NCBI RefSeq assembly: GCF_000875775.1
Contig: NZ_CP010868.1
Coordinates: 186,001-250,000, forward strand
DNA from: Nitrosopumilus piranensis
GTDB taxonomy: Archaea; Thermoproteota; Nitrososphaeria; Nitrososphaerales; Nitrosopumilaceae
Reading direction: 5' to 3'
Length of the DNA stretch: 64,000 nucleotides
In this document: piece after piece, positions 5,916 through 55,868 of the stretch
Position numbering within the stretch: the first letter of the stretch is position 1
How the letters are laid out: every line of letters starts with the position of its first letter
Translations under genes and position numbers: made by a program
The notes under the pieces: generated by a model
Seen by the model: the letters and a program-made list of their open reading frames with translations, nothing else
Told to the model about the DNA's origin: nothing
Database searches by the model: none

Positions 5916-5971
5916 CATACTTAGTAAATTTTTTGTAAAAACTATTTCTTCTAGTATAACCAAAAAATATC

Positions 5972-6160
5972 ATGGGATTATTTGGTGGAAATAAAAATGA
6001 GTTAAAATGTAAAAAATGCGGAACAATTCTTTCAGATTCAGAGAGATTAAAAAGACATCAAGAAGTAGCACATAACAAGAAAAAAGAAAAATGTAGAGTT
6101 TGTGGAACAGAGTTTAACACGCAAGAAGATTTGCGAAAACATAAAAAAAATTGCAAGTAG
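5972..6160 (+). CDS. two-finger C2H2 zinc protein
   Basis: 62 residues, very basic. Two C2H2-like fingers are plain: CKKCGTILSDSERLKRHQEVAH and CRVCGTEFNTQEDLRKHKKNC, the second with a terminal CCHC-like H/C pair. This arrangement suits binding to nucleic acid. The N-terminus MGLFGGNKNE is a short glycine-rich leader. It stands alone between a membrane protein and a convergent hypothetical gene. A small DNA/RNA-binding or regulatory role is inferred. Confidence 0.75.
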   Translation: MGLFGGNKNELKCKKCGTILSDSERLKRHQEVAHNKKKEKCRVCGTEFNTQEDLRKHKKNCK

Positions 6161-6168
6161 TTTTTAGA

Positions 6169-6378
6169 TTATTCAGAAAGACCTGATTCATATTTTGGAG
6201 GTCGTTTTAGGGCTTTTTCTATAGATACCAAGTTTTTTATTTCATTTTTTGAATTCATAGTCAAAGTTTTGACCATTTCCGTACCTAATTGTACTGATTG
6301 TTCAGGTAGTGTCTCTAAAAATTTTTCAAGACCTTTTTTGTAATTTTCAATTAATTCCAATCCTTCTTCAAGAGTCAT
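6169..6378 (-). CDS. small helical hypothetical protein
   Basis: 69 residues from the ATG at 6378 (MTLEEGLELIENYKKG). An ATG four codons upstream at 6390 is also possible and neither has a convincing TATA box. The protein is almost wholly helical and charged, with no cysteines and no membrane segment. It is divergent from tyrS, whose promoter region it shares. No recognised family. Confidence 0.5.
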   Translation of the reverse strand: MTLEEGLELIENYKKGLEKFLETLPEQSVQLGTEMVKTLTMNSKNEIKNLVSIEKALKRPPKYESGLSE

Positions 6379-6440
6379 AATTATGATCAAATGATCTTCT
6401 ATTCAAAGGTTCTAAATTTTTCAAAAACTCTTTGAATAAC

Positions 6441-6446
6441 TTTATA
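6441..6446 (+). promoter_or_regulatory. TATA box for tyrS
   Basis: TTTATA is centred about 30 nt before the TTG start at 6474, slightly longer than the usual 26 nt. A leader of a few bases is possible. Confidence 0.4.
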
Positions 6447-6473
6447 CGTTTACTAGTCAAAAGTTGATTTGAT

Positions 6474-46785: not shown

Positions 46786-49700
46786 TCAAGCATAGTCAGT
46801 TAGAAGTGATTGATCACCAGGGCTCTTTCCAAATACTAATTCAATTTCATCAGAAAGTGCATGAATTCTTCCTCTCTGATATTCACTAACATCATATTTG
46901 TCAACAAGTCTTTTTGCAAGTTTCAGATATTTTTCTACAGAACCACGAGTTATTGTAGGAATTAGTTTGTGCCCACACACGCAGGTTTGGATTAAGGGCA
47001 TTCGGCGGTAAGATTTGCCACAACCAGTACACCTAAAATTTTGTCTAGCATATGCTCTTAGATTGCCCATAATATCTGGAACAAGGTGAGTTGAAATGAC
47101 ATCTGAAACAATTTCTGAGGTATTTACAGCATCAATCAATTCAGCATTTTTAACTTGCATATCAAATTTATCCAACATTGAACCAAGAGTAGAATATGCA
47201 CTGCGAGATTTTGAAGTGGTAAGAGATGATGTTGAATGTGTAAAATAATAATCATAAAATTGTCTTTCTGTCTCAAGTCGAGATTTGATAATTTCAACAG
47301 AAGAGATGTCAGGTGCTTTGACTTGTTGAATCGTTGATTCAAAAAATTCTAGAGGAAGTGATTTTGTAACCTCAAGATTGTGTGCTTGAGGTTGAGACTC
47401 GTGTGGTAAAACAAGAGGTTGAATAAGCAGTGGAGCATCCATCAATCCGCCTATAGCATCTGAAAGGAATTGCCTTGAAAAATTCAAAAGACTATCCATC
47501 AACAACATAATCGAGTCAGCATCTCCATCTGCGTCTCTTCTTTTTGCAGAATGCCAGTTAGGGGTTGCAAAACAGACATGGGTTTCAGAATATCCAATAA
47601 TTCTACCAACAATTCCAACAGACGTATGAGGAGCCAAACCGATTATTAGATGCCCAATCAATTCCTCAGAATTTTTTACATTGTAAAATGGAGTCTTGCC
47701 GTAGAATTTTTCTAAAAGTGTGTCAATGTATTTACAAATAGAGACAAGATACCTGCCACTTTCATAGGGAATTACTACATCCTGCATACGGAGTTCAACT
47801 ATCTGTTCAGGATTTTCAAGTGGGTCACCATTAATATCATGTGAATATCCTAATTCTTTGAGCTTCTCAATTGAGGTTCCGATCCAAGATGGTTTGAATT
47901 GAGTTAGAGGCGAGTTAGTTGCATCAAATCGAACAGTTCCATCCTTGAATACTGTAAGACCAAAATTTTGTCTTACAAGTCCCTTTTCCAAAGGCTCGGC
48001 AATCTTATCTTGACTGATTAGTTCCTTTACTCCTTTGAATGGTTCTTGTGCACGTAAACGAATCTTTTCTTGTGCTTCAAGGAGTTTTGATTTTAATGGG
48101 AATTCCTTATGTGAGTAAGCTAAAGCATTTCGTTTACATTTGTTACAAAAAGATTCTTCAAGCGTATCTCTGCAATGAGGACATCTATAGGTAACAGTTG
48201 TTTTTATACCACATTTTGAGCATTTTATTCCAATTGATGGTTGGTTACATTGAGTACAATGCCTGTTGTAGATACTTGTGAAAAAGTGCTCATTTTTAGA
48301 TGCTTTTAGAAGATCTCTTGTTGGTCCCCCTTTATCACTAATAGGAAATAATACATGTGTTGGTGGCTTCATCTGTCTTGGGGCAGCTTTTTCTGGTCTT
48401 CCAATTCTTACCCCAACTGAGGTAGAAAATTTGTTTTTAATTTTGATTCCAGAGGATTTTGAAATTATCTGAGGGATTGACGATTCGTCAATTTCTGGTT
48501 TTTCTCTAAATAACAAATTAAAGAAAATTTTTGCCTCAAGATTTTCAAGTATGATGTTGTCATTTTCAACTACATGTGGAACTCCTAATTTTTCAAGAAT
48601 TTTTTTTATTTGTATATGGTATTCGATTGATGTTTCATTGATTTTTTTAGGTTCTAAAAGTAGATTGAGTTCTTCAGAGGAAATTTTATCCCAAAAATAC
48701 AGATAGCGTGGATGAAGAGCCATATCAAAATCAAGGGAGATTTTTAATGCCTCATCTATGGTGGGAACTTTGTTGAGAAATTGAGTTAGATACTGATCTT
48801 CAGGCTCGTATTTCTGAATTTTTTGTTTTAATTCTTCTATCCAAAATTCTTCCACATATGCTGATGGTACAAGTTGAGCATTGTTTTCTAGAAAATCTCC
48901 AAAGGATATCAGAATATCTCCAAGATGAAGTATTTTTTCAATATCATTCTTAATTTCAATTCCATGTTTCACATCCCGAATCTTTACAACATTTCCATTT
49001 TTCAGGCGGACAGTGGGAGTTTCAATTGAATCAACAAACGCAACAGTAGAGCCTTTTCCTGGAATATCAATTTTGATTTGAGTTCCAACTGCAATGGTAT
49101 GATCAAGAATTTCTGCTATTACGGGATGAATCCCAACTGCTGCAAAGCCGGTGTTGCATGCTCTTCCGTATCTTAATCGAAATCCACCCAGTTTGTTAGG
49201 CATGGATAAGACTGATCTTCCTGTAATTACTTCATGCATTCTTTTAGTAGCTGCGTCTTCTTGTTTTTCACCTGTTTGAACAGCTCCTTTAAGGTCATTG
49301 AGCCATTCCCAACCATCAAGATTGTACATTTCAATTCTTTTTAGTAGTTTTTTGGATCTTCCAATTAGACCATCATTTAGGACACGTAAGGCACCTCCAC
49401 GTACCCGATCAGTCTTAATTCGTACCATAGATTTGTGATTTACAACCTCATAAGGATCTGTATCTACGCCGTCTAACTCTACTGGTAGATTTGAAATCAC
49501 ATGTTCAATATCTTCATCTAATATATGGAATTGAAAGCTACTAGCCTCCCTTTCATAGATTCTTAATTCCTCTACAAATCGACCTGTTTCATCATCAAAT
49601 GAGTTGGCTTGAAATTTTGACAGTCCTGCAGTCTTTCTAACATGATCAGCTATCAACATTGTAACTGCAGATTCTGTCCCTCCAGCTGAACGCATTGGGC

Positions 49701-50163
49701 CTGCAATAGAAACTGAGAGATAATCAGAACCATCCTTGTTTTTCTTTATTTTTACTTCACTTATTCCTTGTAAAGGAGCTATGGTGACACCCTCTGTTAC
49801 AATTGCCAATCCAACCCGAACTGCCAGATCAAGTTTTTCTTCCAAAGTAGAATCAGGTAAAGAATATTTTCCCTGTGCAATCTCTTTTGAGAGAATCAGT
49901 GCTGAAAGTTCTTTTCCATTAATTTTTAGAAGTTCACGTAAGGGTTCGGCAATGTCAATTTCATGCATTTTAGCCACACGATCTGCTAGATCAAATGCGA
50001 TTTTCGGCTCAATTATACCTGATGAGTCCACTAGACTTGATTTAGCAGATGCTGCAGCTTCAAAAATTGAGTACGTTTCTGCAGATAAATTCGAGTAATA
50101 ATCAAGATAATAATCAGGCATTTTTATGCCACTTATACGAGAAATTGCGTCGTTTTCAGACAT
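46786..50163 (-). CDS. dp2: DNA polymerase D large subunit (DP2)
   Basis: 1125 residues, the full catalytic subunit of PolD. SVSIAGPMRSAGGTESAV and NKLGGFRLRYGRACNTGFAAVG are typical. The active-site region CFATPNWHSAKRRDADGDADSIMLLMD has the catalytic aspartates. Zinc motifs are CTQCNQPSIGIKCSKCG, CPHCRDTLEESFCNKC and, near the end, CTGCGKSYRRMPLIQTCVCG. No intein is seen. The small subunit lies at 54423-55868. GGGP synthase precedes it by 12 nt on the same strand. Confidence 0.95.
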   Translation of the reverse strand: MSENDAISRISGIKMPDYYLDYYSNLSAETYSIFEAAASAKSSLVDSSGIIEPKIAFDLADRVAKMHEIDIAEPLRELLKINGKELSALILSKEIAQGKYSLPDSTLEEKLDLAVRVGLAIVTEGVTIAPLQGISEVKIKKNKDGSDYLSVSIAGPMRSAGGTESAVTMLIADHVRKTAGLSKFQANSFDDETGRFVEELRIYEREASSFQFHILDEDIEHVISNLPVELDGVDTDPYEVVNHKSMVRIKTDRVRGGALRVLNDGLIGRSKKLLKRIEMYNLDGWEWLNDLKGAVQTGEKQEDAATKRMHEVITGRSVLSMPNKLGGFRLRYGRACNTGFAAVGIHPVIAEILDHTIAVGTQIKIDIPGKGSTVAFVDSIETPTVRLKNGNVVKIRDVKHGIEIKNDIEKILHLGDILISFGDFLENNAQLVPSAYVEEFWIEELKQKIQKYEPEDQYLTQFLNKVPTIDEALKISLDFDMALHPRYLYFWDKISSEELNLLLEPKKINETSIEYHIQIKKILEKLGVPHVVENDNIILENLEAKIFFNLLFREKPEIDESSIPQIISKSSGIKIKNKFSTSVGVRIGRPEKAAPRQMKPPTHVLFPISDKGGPTRDLLKASKNEHFFTSIYNRHCTQCNQPSIGIKCSKCGIKTTVTYRCPHCRDTLEESFCNKCKRNALAYSHKEFPLKSKLLEAQEKIRLRAQEPFKGVKELISQDKIAEPLEKGLVRQNFGLTVFKDGTVRFDATNSPLTQFKPSWIGTSIEKLKELGYSHDINGDPLENPEQIVELRMQDVVIPYESGRYLVSICKYIDTLLEKFYGKTPFYNVKNSEELIGHLIIGLAPHTSVGIVGRIIGYSETHVCFATPNWHSAKRRDADGDADSIMLLMDSLLNFSRQFLSDAIGGLMDAPLLIQPLVLPHESQPQAHNLEVTKSLPLEFFESTIQQVKAPDISSVEIIKSRLETERQFYDYYFTHSTSSLTTSKSRSAYSTLGSMLDKFDMQVKNAELIDAVNTSEIVSDVISTHLVPDIMGNLRAYARQNFRCTGCGKSYRRMPLIQTCVCGHKLIPTITRGSVEKYLKLAKRLVDKYDVSEYQRGRIHALSDEIELVFGKSPGDQSLLTDYA

Positions 50164-52377: not shown

Positions 52378-52764
52378 TTATTGTTGTTTTTGGGTAATTT
52401 TTATGGTCTGATAGATCCATTCTCTACCATTTCTGGTCCTATCCACCCTGCCTTTTGATGAAAATCTCGAGAGATAGGTAGAGATTATACTAAGTTTAAT
52501 AGGTTCGTTGAACTCATCTTCATATTTTTCCAAAATATTAGTTGATGTGAATTTTCCCATGGGGAAGAATTTATCTATAATATACCAAATTTTTGAACCT
52601 ACAGAATCTATGTTTGTTGTTTCTTGTTCTTCTTCAATATTCATCAAATCCATCATTTCAAATATTTTCAAGACTTTTTCCCTGGTCACATTACCTTCTA
52701 ATTTAATATCATAGCGTGCACCATCAGTATCTTCCATATCAATACGAATACGTTTTTTGGCCAT
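52378..52764 (-). CDS. winged-helix-like protein next to the origin
   Basis: 128 residues from the ATG at 52764 (MAKKRIRIDMEDTDGARYDIKLEG). The C-terminal 70 residues (KIWYIIDKFFPMGKFTSTNILEKYEDEFNEPIKLSIISTYLSRFSSKGRVDRTRNGREWIY) look like a winged helix with a basic wing. The N-terminal part is a small beta unit. It is transcribed away from the origin segment, whose first GTTAAC palindrome is 23 nt upstream of its start. A role in regulating replication or its own gene is possible. No named family. Confidence 0.6.
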   Translation of the reverse strand: MAKKRIRIDMEDTDGARYDIKLEGNVTREKVLKIFEMMDLMNIEEEQETTNIDSVGSKIWYIIDKFFPMGKFTSTNILEKYEDEFNEPIKLSIISTYLSRFSSKGRVDRTRNGREWIYQTIKITQKQQ

Positions 52765-52840
52765 GTTAGGATCTAATCGATCTAATGTTAACAGTTCAAA
52801 GGATCCACGAAATTTTGTTAACTAAGTTGTTTGTTAACGT

Positions 52841-52855
52841 TGACTGCCTGAGTCA
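52841..52855. repeat. 5-5-5 inverted repeat in the origin region
   Basis: TGACT-gcctg-AGTCA, a perfect short dyad between the GTTAAC cluster and the first ORB. It could be an operator of the winged-helix gene or part of the origin. Confidence 0.4.
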
Positions 52856-52922
52856 CGCCTGTCCATCATTTTATTATTAACAAATCATAATGATTAAACC
52901 CCTTAAAATTAGTGTTTTTCAT

Positions 52923-52945
52923 GCCTGGAGTGGAAATAAAGGGGT
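52923..52945 (+). repeat. ORB-like origin recognition element 1
   Basis: 23-bp element with core GGAGTGGAAATAAAGGGG (52927-52944) ending in the G-string seen in archaeal origin recognition boxes. An exact second copy is 61 bp downstream. Orc1/Cdc6 is expected to bind here. Confidence 0.8.
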
Positions 52946-52983
52946 AGATTTTAGATATTCACAATGTTAACGTCAATCTTAAC

Positions 52984-53006
52984 GCCTGGAGTGGAAATAA
53001 AGGGGT
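52984..53006 (+). repeat. ORB-like origin recognition element 2
   Basis: Exact 23-bp copy of element 1 in the same orientation. The A/T-rich stretch that follows (ends near 53060) is the likely unwinding site. Confidence 0.8.
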
Positions 53007-53079
53007 TAAAATGAGGTTTTTTAGTGATTTTTTAACACCAAATTAACAATTTGTTAACCTATAAGAACCCACACACCAA

Positions 53080-53090
53080 TATTTCCACTC
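53080..53090 (-). repeat. inverted partial ORB
   Basis: On the minus strand GAGTGGAAATA matches the left half of the ORB core exactly, but the G-string is degenerate. With the two plus-strand copies it would flank the A/T-rich stretch in the opposed layout of other archaeal origins. Confidence 0.55.
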
Positions 53091-53243
53091 TTCTTTTTTC
53101 TAATTTTTTTTTTTTTTGAAAAAACAAAAACTAACTAAAAATAATTAATTACAAACTAAACTACAATTACTATTCTATTCTATACTCTCTTAATTTAGAT
53201 ATGGTTATGAGATTATTGATAGGAAATAGAGGTGTGTGAGTAT

Positions 53244-54446
53244 ATGTCGGATCCAATTGATAGGTTGTTAGATGCAGCTGAGACTGGAAAATCAATAATT
53301 AAAAATAGAGAGATTCTCCATTTTACCTATATTCCAAAAACTATCCAACATAGGAACAATGAACAAGAACAAGTAACACAATCATTACTTCCTATTCTAA
53401 AACAATCAAGACCATCGAACCTTTTAGTTTATGGAAAACCTGGAACTGGAAAAACTCTAGTTGTTAAAAAAGTAATCTCAAAAATACAAGAAAGGGTTGA
53501 AAAGTCAAATTTCCCAATAAAATTAATCTACTCAAACTCAAAAAAAGAGACTACCCTTTACGGATTATTGGTTAGTTTTGGGCGTCAATTAGGTTTAATT
53601 GATAAGGATCTACCCTCAACTGGTTTGGCCATTAGTGAGGTGTTCAAACGAATTCTAAACAATATTGAACAAAAAGAAATCAATGTTGTTTTTGTAATTG
53701 ATGAGATAGATTATCTTGCTGAGTTAGTCTCAAAGACTGGAAAAGATATACTTTACCAACTAACAAGGGCCAATGAAAGCCTCAATAATGGCTCATTAAC
53801 TTTGATTGGAATTTCAAATGACTTGACCTTCAAAGAGAAACTAGATCCTAGGGTTATCAGTAGTCTTGGAGAAGAAGAGATTGTCTTTACAAACTATAAT
53901 GTTGAACAAATAAAAAAAATCTTAGAGGAGAGAATATCTGAAGCATTTGAGGCTAATTCTGTAGATGAATCTGCCCTGAATCTATGTGCTGCTCTAGCAG
54001 GTGGTGAACACGGTGATGCCAGAAGAGCAATCGATCTAATTCGAGTTGCAGGTGAGTTGGCTGAAAGACAACAATCTGATAAAGTCACTGAAAACCATGT
54101 TCGTGACGCATCCCTAAAAATTGAAGAAAATAAAGAGGAAACATCTCTGAAATCATATCCACTTCATGAAAAACTAGTCATACTTGCTATAATGAAGGCT
54201 AACGGCTCATCTACTGGTGAAATTTACTCTTCATACAAAAATCTCTGTAAGGTGGTTGGACGAGATGAATTAACACAAAGAAGAATTACACAAATGTTAA
54301 GTGAGATTGAACTTTCTGGAATTATCTCTGGGAGACTGGTACATCAAGGAATTCATGGCAGAACCAAAAAATACAAACTTACAGTATCATCTGAAATGAT
54401 AAAAAAGACCTTCAAAGATGATCTAACTTTGCAAGATATTGTCTAA
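53244..54446 (+). CDS. cdc6: Orc1/Cdc6 replication initiator
   Basis: 400 residues from the ATG at 53244. A GTG at 53232 is in frame, but GAGGTG 9 nt before the ATG looks like a ribosome site. AAA+ motifs are Walker A VYGKPGTGKTL, Walker B VVFVIDEIDYLAEL, sensor 1 LTLIGISND and sensor 2 GGEHGDARRAIDLIR. A C-terminal winged helix (about 310-390) binds DNA. It binds ORB elements and loads MCM at the origin. The ORBs directly upstream are its likely targets. The 3' end overlaps PolD small subunit by 24 bp. Confidence 0.95.
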   Translation: MSDPIDRLLDAAETGKSIIKNREILHFTYIPKTIQHRNNEQEQVTQSLLPILKQSRPSNLLVYGKPGTGKTLVVKKVISKIQERVEKSNFPIKLIYSNSKKETTLYGLLVSFGRQLGLIDKDLPSTGLAISEVFKRILNNIEQKEINVVFVIDEIDYLAELVSKTGKDILYQLTRANESLNNGSLTLIGISNDLTFKEKLDPRVISSLGEEEIVFTNYNVEQIKKILEERISEAFEANSVDESALNLCAALAGGEHGDARRAIDLIRVAGELAERQQSDKVTENHVRDASLKIEENKEETSLKSYPLHEKLVILAIMKANGSSTGEIYSSYKNLCKVVGRDELTQRRITQMLSEIELSGIISGRLVHQGIHGRTKKYKLTVSSEMIKKTFKDDLTLQDIV

Positions 54447-55868
54447 ATTAGAATTGTAATTTTGATGGAAAACCTGGAAAGTCTTCAAATTAACCAGCAA
54501 CGCAATGCCTGGATTTGGGGTCATTCCCACACTGGCTTGAAAAGGTGTCTGTTTTTGCCAAGATCCTGAATTTACCAATAACATTCCTTTGTACATATCT
54601 AACTGAGCCTTGTGGACATGCCCTACATGAAAGATATCTGGAACATCCTCAATAACCATAAGATCTTGCATTTCTGGTGCAATTGGGGTCTGACTGCCAT
54701 AAATTGGACTTAGGTGTCTTGCTCTTAACAAATGCTTCATTACATTTGTTGGCTTGTCATAACTTAGACCCGGTGTAGTCTTTACAATATCATCAATACT
54801 TTGTCCATGAAACATCATCACCTTAACACCATTTAGCGATACAACAGCCGGATTTCCAACCATAATGACATTTTCCCTATCCCACAATCCTGAGTTGTAT
54901 TTTTTTGGAATTGCTGGTTGGGGGAGAGCCCTTCTTCCAGGATCGTGATTTCCAGGCATTATGATTATCTTAATGTTTTTTGGGATCTTTTCAATCAACT
55001 CTTCAACCTTTTTGAGCTGCGCTTCAATGGTCTGGCATACCAATTCCTTGTTTTGGTTTGGATAGATCCCAACCCCATCAACCACATCTCCTCCAATCAA
55101 AATAAATCGAATTTTTCTTGCAGTAGGATCAGAACTGGATATCCATGAAAAAAAATCTGTTAATTCCTCCTCCATGAAGTATTTACTCCCAATATGCAAA
55201 TCAGATAAAAACACTGCATATGCCTCAGACTCGGACTTGTTGGTAGCCTGATCAGGAATATCTGGCAAAATCAAATCCTTTATGATGAATCCAGAGTTTT
55301 TTCCTACACTAACTCTAGCCATAACAAATTGGTCTAACAAAAGGGTGTCTGCAGTCTTTTGTAACTCATTATCAAAAATAATCCCATCAAATGAGCCTGA
55401 TGGGTCCTCTAAAACCAATTTTGTTACATTTCTCTCACTATTTCTTGCAGTTACCAATCCACAAACATACATGTCATCTTTGGATCTTTCATTTTTTACA
55501 AAAGTCAGAGACTTTAACATCCTAGCTTCTGGCCTATCTGAAATTATTCGTTTTAATTTGTTAAATCTGCTAGAAAATAACGCATTGTAACCCTTTACCC
55601 CCTCCCCAGTGGTTATTTTGTCTGTGGGGTCTAACAATACCTGCACTTCACTTTCTAATGATGGGTCATCTTTGATTCCAAGATACGTCTCTAAATCATC
55701 TTGGCTTATCTGAAACAATTTCTGTTTTGTTTTCTCTCTAACAATTTCTTTGATTACTCTCTCTAGTTTTTTTACATCAACATTTTCTAATATTTTAAAA
55801 GCGTCAGGATGAATCTGGAATCCCTTATTTAGTGCATAGTTTAAGGCAAAGGACAATTCCTTTTTCAT
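54423..55868 (-). CDS. dp1: DNA polymerase D small subunit (DP1)
   Basis: 481 residues. The N-terminal helical part is followed by an OB fold (CGLVTARNSERNVTKLVLEDPSGSFDGIIF). The calcineurin-like phosphoesterase domain has FLSDLHIGS, IGGDVVDGVG, MPGNHDPGRR, FHGQS and GHVHKAQ. These are the 3'-5' proofreading nuclease motifs of PolD. It pairs with the large subunit at 46786-50163. It lies convergent to orc1/cdc6 with a 24-bp overlap. Confidence 0.93.
   Translation of the reverse strand: MKKELSFALNYALNKGFQIHPDAFKILENVDVKKLERVIKEIVREKTKQKLFQISQDDLETYLGIKDDPSLESEVQVLLDPTDKITTGEGVKGYNALFSSRFNKLKRIISDRPEARMLKSLTFVKNERSKDDMYVCGLVTARNSERNVTKLVLEDPSGSFDGIIFDNELQKTADTLLLDQFVMARVSVGKNSGFIIKDLILPDIPDQATNKSESEAYAVFLSDLHIGSKYFMEEELTDFFSWISSSDPTARKIRFILIGGDVVDGVGIYPNQNKELVCQTIEAQLKKVEELIEKIPKNIKIIIMPGNHDPGRRALPQPAIPKKYNSGLWDRENVIMVGNPAVVSLNGVKVMMFHGQSIDDIVKTTPGLSYDKPTNVMKHLLRARHLSPIYGSQTPIAPEMQDLMVIEDVPDIFHVGHVHKAQLDMYKGMLLVNSGSWQKQTPFQASVGMTPNPGIALLVNLKTFQVFHQNYNSNLDNILQS

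Follow-up and report, generated by a model that had tools for sequence, protein, structure and literature searches.

The 479-bp intergenic region at positions 52765–53243, directly upstream of an orc1/cdc6 initiator gene, is almost certainly oriC, the single bidirectional replication origin of the Nitrosopumilus-type chromosome. Positions are those of the window, the whole 64,000-nucleotide stretch of DNA that was analysed, unless genome coordinates are stated. The preliminary description had already read this region as an origin, and that reading is borne out by sequence features: the repeats match the archaeal origin recognition box (ORB), an Orc1-1-type initiator is encoded next to them, an A/T-rich, unstable element lies among them, the arrangement is conserved across the order and the strand-composition skew turns nearby. 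The region (71% A+T) is bounded by a divergent gene for a 128-aa protein, whose ATG is at 52764, and by orc1, which follows directly with its ATG at 53244, as had been noted. It is not the longest non-coding segment of the window, as had been claimed, but the second longest; a 558-bp gap at 5916–6473 exceeds it and is the longest ORF-free gap of the window at an 80-aa ORF threshold.

Two identical 23-bp boxes in direct orientation on the plus strand, ORB1 (GCCTGGAGTGGAAATAAAGGGGT; 52923–52945) and ORB2 (52984–53006), form the core of the region at a spacing of 61 bp, and their positions and exact identity agree with the preliminary description. An exact repeat of this length within a 479-bp gap is far too improbable to be explained by chance (our estimate is ~1e-7), and no further copy of the pattern, at three or fewer mismatches, occurs anywhere in the 1,713,078-bp genome. 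The ORB form ascribed to these repeats is likewise upheld. Against the common archaeal motif TCCA[CG]T[TG]GAAA[TC][GA]AAGGGGT (Ori-Finder 2, PMC4164010), no site in the genome scores as well as ORB1 and ORB2, which have two mismatches each; the next best match has four. Agreement extends to 18 of the 20 motif positions, including TGGAAA and GGGGT; the deviation falls at motif positions 2–3, which are CC in the published motif and GG in both boxes. Of 230 boxes from Nitrosopumilaceae, 228 and 225 deviate at these two positions, respectively, whereas among 21 genomes from outside the family six have boxes that match the motif exactly. The Nitrosopumilaceae have therefore lost the dyad half of the box.

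For comparison, the DNA upstream of orc1 was taken from 143 genomes belonging to the genus, its family or its order. In this comparison, a check that the preliminary description had proposed, the repeats, their spacing and their position upstream of orc1 recur. The ORB1–ORB2 pair is present in essentially all of the ~120 Nitrosopumilaceae examined, and in 129 of the 132 genomes scored its two boxes are spaced by 61 or 62 bp. In most genomes of family f2, the first two boxes are 40–41 bp apart, which is shorter by about two helical turns and suggests that ORB spacing may follow the DNA helix.

Where the preliminary description had recognised two ORB elements, both of which stand, the region holds four boxes, an inverted ORB3 and a fourth, ORB4, having been missed. 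ORB3 (AAGAGTGGAAATATTGGTGTGTGG; 53069–53092, minus strand) points its G-string towards ORB2 and is conserved across the family over its full extent. The inverted partial copy previously placed at 53080–53090 does exist, but it is longer than stated, running from 53073 to 53090 with 83% identity to both repeats over 18 nt. ORB4 (ATAGGAAATAGAGGTGTGTGA; 53219–53239, plus strand) is also conserved and overlaps the orc1 Shine-Dalgarno sequence, GAGGTG at 53229–53234, which it covers. ORB3 and ORB4 are closer to each other than to ORB1 (GGAAATAnnGGTGTGTGnGT). Four boxes stand at matching places across genus and family, and in relatives the inverted third box lies ~168 bp, and the fourth ~29 bp, before the orc1 start codon. 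In two genomes (G046 and G050) the fourth box sits at -44, off the ribosome-binding position, and ORB4 is therefore not merely a ribosome-binding site.

When the genome was scanned with the core part of a position weight matrix (PWM) built from the relatives' ORB1 and ORB2 only, a training set from which ORB3 and ORB4 were absent, the four boxes ranked 1, 2, 4 and 10 genome-wide, with ORB1 and ORB2 at the top, ORB3 fourth and ORB4 tenth. Rank 3 is taken by a lone match to the ORB core, at genome position 296,854 on the minus strand, which is either a chance match or a titration site. As this match outscores ORB3, the assignment of ORB3 and ORB4 rests more on conservation and place than on score.

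The interval between ORB3 and ORB4 (53093–53218) is ~83% A+T and is likely to be the duplex unwinding element, judging from its composition and position. Duplex stability in the gap is lowest over the 100 bp at 53101–53200, which fall within this interval at the 99.94th genome percentile of instability, flanked by ORB3 and ORB4, which are oriented outwards from it. A conserved A/T block at 53134–53163 lies inside the candidate element, and the same interval may also hold the orc1 promoter.

A second class of repeat is formed by five GTTAAC palindromes, all conserved in relatives. T1 (52787–52792), T2 (52817–52822) and T3 (52833–52838) precede ORB1, T4 (52966–52971) lies between ORB1 and ORB2, and T5 (53053–53058) lies between ORB2 and ORB3. 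A further conserved block of 23 bp with no assigned function (GTTGACTGCCTGAGTCACGCCTG; 52839–52861) adjoins T3 and is likewise retained in relatives. No hexamer is more enriched in the gap than GTTAAC (p ~1e-16, a Poisson estimate in which palindromes are counted twice), and nowhere else in the genome do at least three copies occur within 300 bp. It is also the most enriched hexamer in the relatives' gaps (66-fold), which hold 552 copies against 23 expected, at fixed distances from the ORBs; kinship of the genomes inflates these counts, and the argument rests on how the sites differ from unconserved stretches within the gap. In that comparison, the GTTAAC sites mostly carry 1.6–2.0 bits per position, as against ~0.3 bit in the unconstrained stretch 52884–52913.

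Two other accounts of GTTAAC were considered and discarded. Avoidance as a restriction site is not evident, with 207 copies observed and 246 expected, and a genome-wide regulon marked by GTTAAC pairs is not supported, the pairs being rarer than a control pattern in nearly all genomes. Individual pairs do occur elsewhere. GTTAACC-N14-GGTTAAC lies ahead of a biotin synthase-like gene (G000:C1:1136322-1136349) and resembles a BirA box; another pair, 14 bp apart, precedes a hemerythrin-like gene (G000:C1:383221-383240), and similar pairs are present in relatives. Nothing relevant was found in a literature search for GTTAAC in Nitrosopumilus and at the origins of archaea.

The initiator gene itself (53244–54446, plus strand) encodes an Orc1-1-type protein with Pfam Cdc6_C and Cdc6_lid domains and a TIGR02928 match above cut-off. 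It is flanked by the genes for both subunits of DNA polymerase D, the small subunit DP1 (54423–55868) and the large subunit DP2 (46786–50163), each on the minus strand. The divergent neighbour on the other side of the gap (52378–52764, minus strand) is conserved, being found in 105 of 121 genomes across the order and near orc1 in most of them. Its predicted model has a confident winged-helix part; no Pfam or PDB sequence match rose above threshold, and a structure search returned generic winged-helix matches only (best E 0.003).

Strand composition was analysed as detrended cumulative skews, with block shuffles for significance, on a genome rebuilt from its stretches and containing 909 N. Purine skew reaches its maximum at genome position 224,697 and its minimum at 1,080,391, which are 14 kb and 15 kb from the ORBs (238.9 kb) and their antipode (1,095.5 kb), respectively. 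AT skew agrees, within ~15 kb of both points, and the extremes of keto skew lie 36 kb from the ORBs and 5 kb from the antipode. Block shuffles gave p <=0.0002 for amplitude and p 0.001–0.003 for joint position. GC skew alone, one of the checks put forward in the preliminary description, showed no signal (amplitude p 0.12 in block shuffles), and the expected turn near the ORBs and antipode was instead seen in purine and AT skew. The turning points are as expected for one bidirectional origin.

A second, divergent orc1-like gene (31% identity) is present 76 kb away (G000:C1:315279-316397). The existence of this paralogue at 315,279 is what would favour the locus being one of at least two origins, with another at the paralogue. 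The ~75-bp gap upstream of the paralogue was searched and contains no ORB match, however, and the paralogue has matches in only a minority of 95 genomes (genus members). The skew, moreover, is consistent with one origin–terminus pair, and the reviews that treat N. maritimus give it a single mapped origin. A multi-origin arrangement is thus exceedingly improbable, and scarcely more credit is due to the proposal that the repeats are not initiator sites at all but operators through which a transcription factor controls the winged-helix gene and orc1. The gap is indeed a divergent promoter region, ORB4 lies on the orc1 ribosome-binding site, and 23 bp separate T1 from the start codon of the winged-helix gene. 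Operators of this kind would nevertheless have to share the sequence of the published ORB motif and coincide with a skew turn. They would also have to stay at orc1 in family f2, where the winged-helix gene is ~2.5 kb away and the ORBs and GTTAAC sites remain. In two members of family f7 (L334 and L336), an inserted ORF parts orc1 from the ORB pair, which keeps its 61–62-bp spacing and still lies beside the winged-helix gene.

A narrower alternative, that the GTTAAC array alone is the operator of the winged-helix protein and serves only its autoregulation, is unlikely, although less so than the preceding two. It draws on the predicted winged-helix fold and on three of the five GTTAAC sites lying between ORB1 and the start of the gene. 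In family f2, however, the 600 bp preceding the displaced gene contain no GTTAAC while the sites are kept around the ORBs, and there are several genomes in which the gene adjoins orc1 but GTTAAC is lacking. The winged-helix protein was accordingly set aside as a candidate binder of GTTAAC, a link that neither the f2 genomes nor the GTTAAC-free genomes support. The array is thus an element of the origin, its sites having been kept beside the ORBs where the winged-helix gene lies elsewhere.

For the single bidirectional origin, we infer the following course of initiation from the elements, their conservation and the skew. Orc1/Cdc6 made from the adjacent gene would bind the direct repeats ORB1 and ORB2, whose 61-bp spacing corresponds to about six helical turns. 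It would also occupy ORB3 and ORB4, which are weaker and face away from 53093–53218. Bound Orc1 would then bring about MCM loading and melting at the A/T-rich element, and two forks would depart in opposite directions. Because ORB4 overlaps the orc1 ribosome-binding site, Orc1 on ORB4 probably also holds down its own synthesis. A second DNA-binding protein, acting to help or to restrain initiation, probably recognises the GTTAAC palindromes. It is proposed, more tentatively and with somewhat less than even confidence, that the array provides the origins of this order with a second control independent of the initiator; bound by a protein or methylated, it would set the time at which Orc1 fires the origin and would be a functional counterpart of the sites in bacterial oriC that are methylated or bound by accessory proteins.

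The ocean is very rich in ammonia-oxidizing archaea, and little is known of how their origins are controlled. The locus supplies exact candidate sites within a family-wide, four-box layout of fixed spacing. Autoregulation can be tested at the box that lies over the ribosome-binding site of the initiator gene, and the conserved GTTAAC array points to an undescribed origin-binding factor.

The initiator is similar over its full length to Orc1-1 of S. solfataricus (2qby_A, 283 bits) and Orc1 of A. pernix (2v1u, 279 bits), its nearest solved structures. S. solfataricus has three origins and A. pernix two, whereas we infer one for the Nitrosopumilus genome. As summarised in two reviews (PMC4010727 and PMC5333045, citing Pelve et al. 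2013), a single origin of N. maritimus was mapped by marker frequency, and a table in a review lists this organism with 1645 kb and one origin. Among the genomes compared, G006 (1,645,259 bp) is presumed to be N. maritimus SCM1; it has an identical ORB1 and an ORB2 with two mismatches, at -320 and -258, spaced by 62 bp rather than the 61 bp seen here, and four exact GTTAAC sites rather than five. The mapped N. maritimus origin reportedly lies at orc1. The class of origin is thus already known from N. maritimus, and the locus belongs to it, with an undescribed accessory array of GTTAAC palindromes. In oriC1 of Haloarcula hispanica, a G-rich extra repeat next to the ORBs is a demonstrated enhancer (PMC3936714). 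The two origins are alike in having an A/T-rich region between inverted ORBs together with an extra conserved repeat, although this repeat is a G-rich enhancer in H. hispanica and a GTTAAC array of no assigned role here. The H. hispanica repeat is a precedent for accessory repeats such as GTTAAC.
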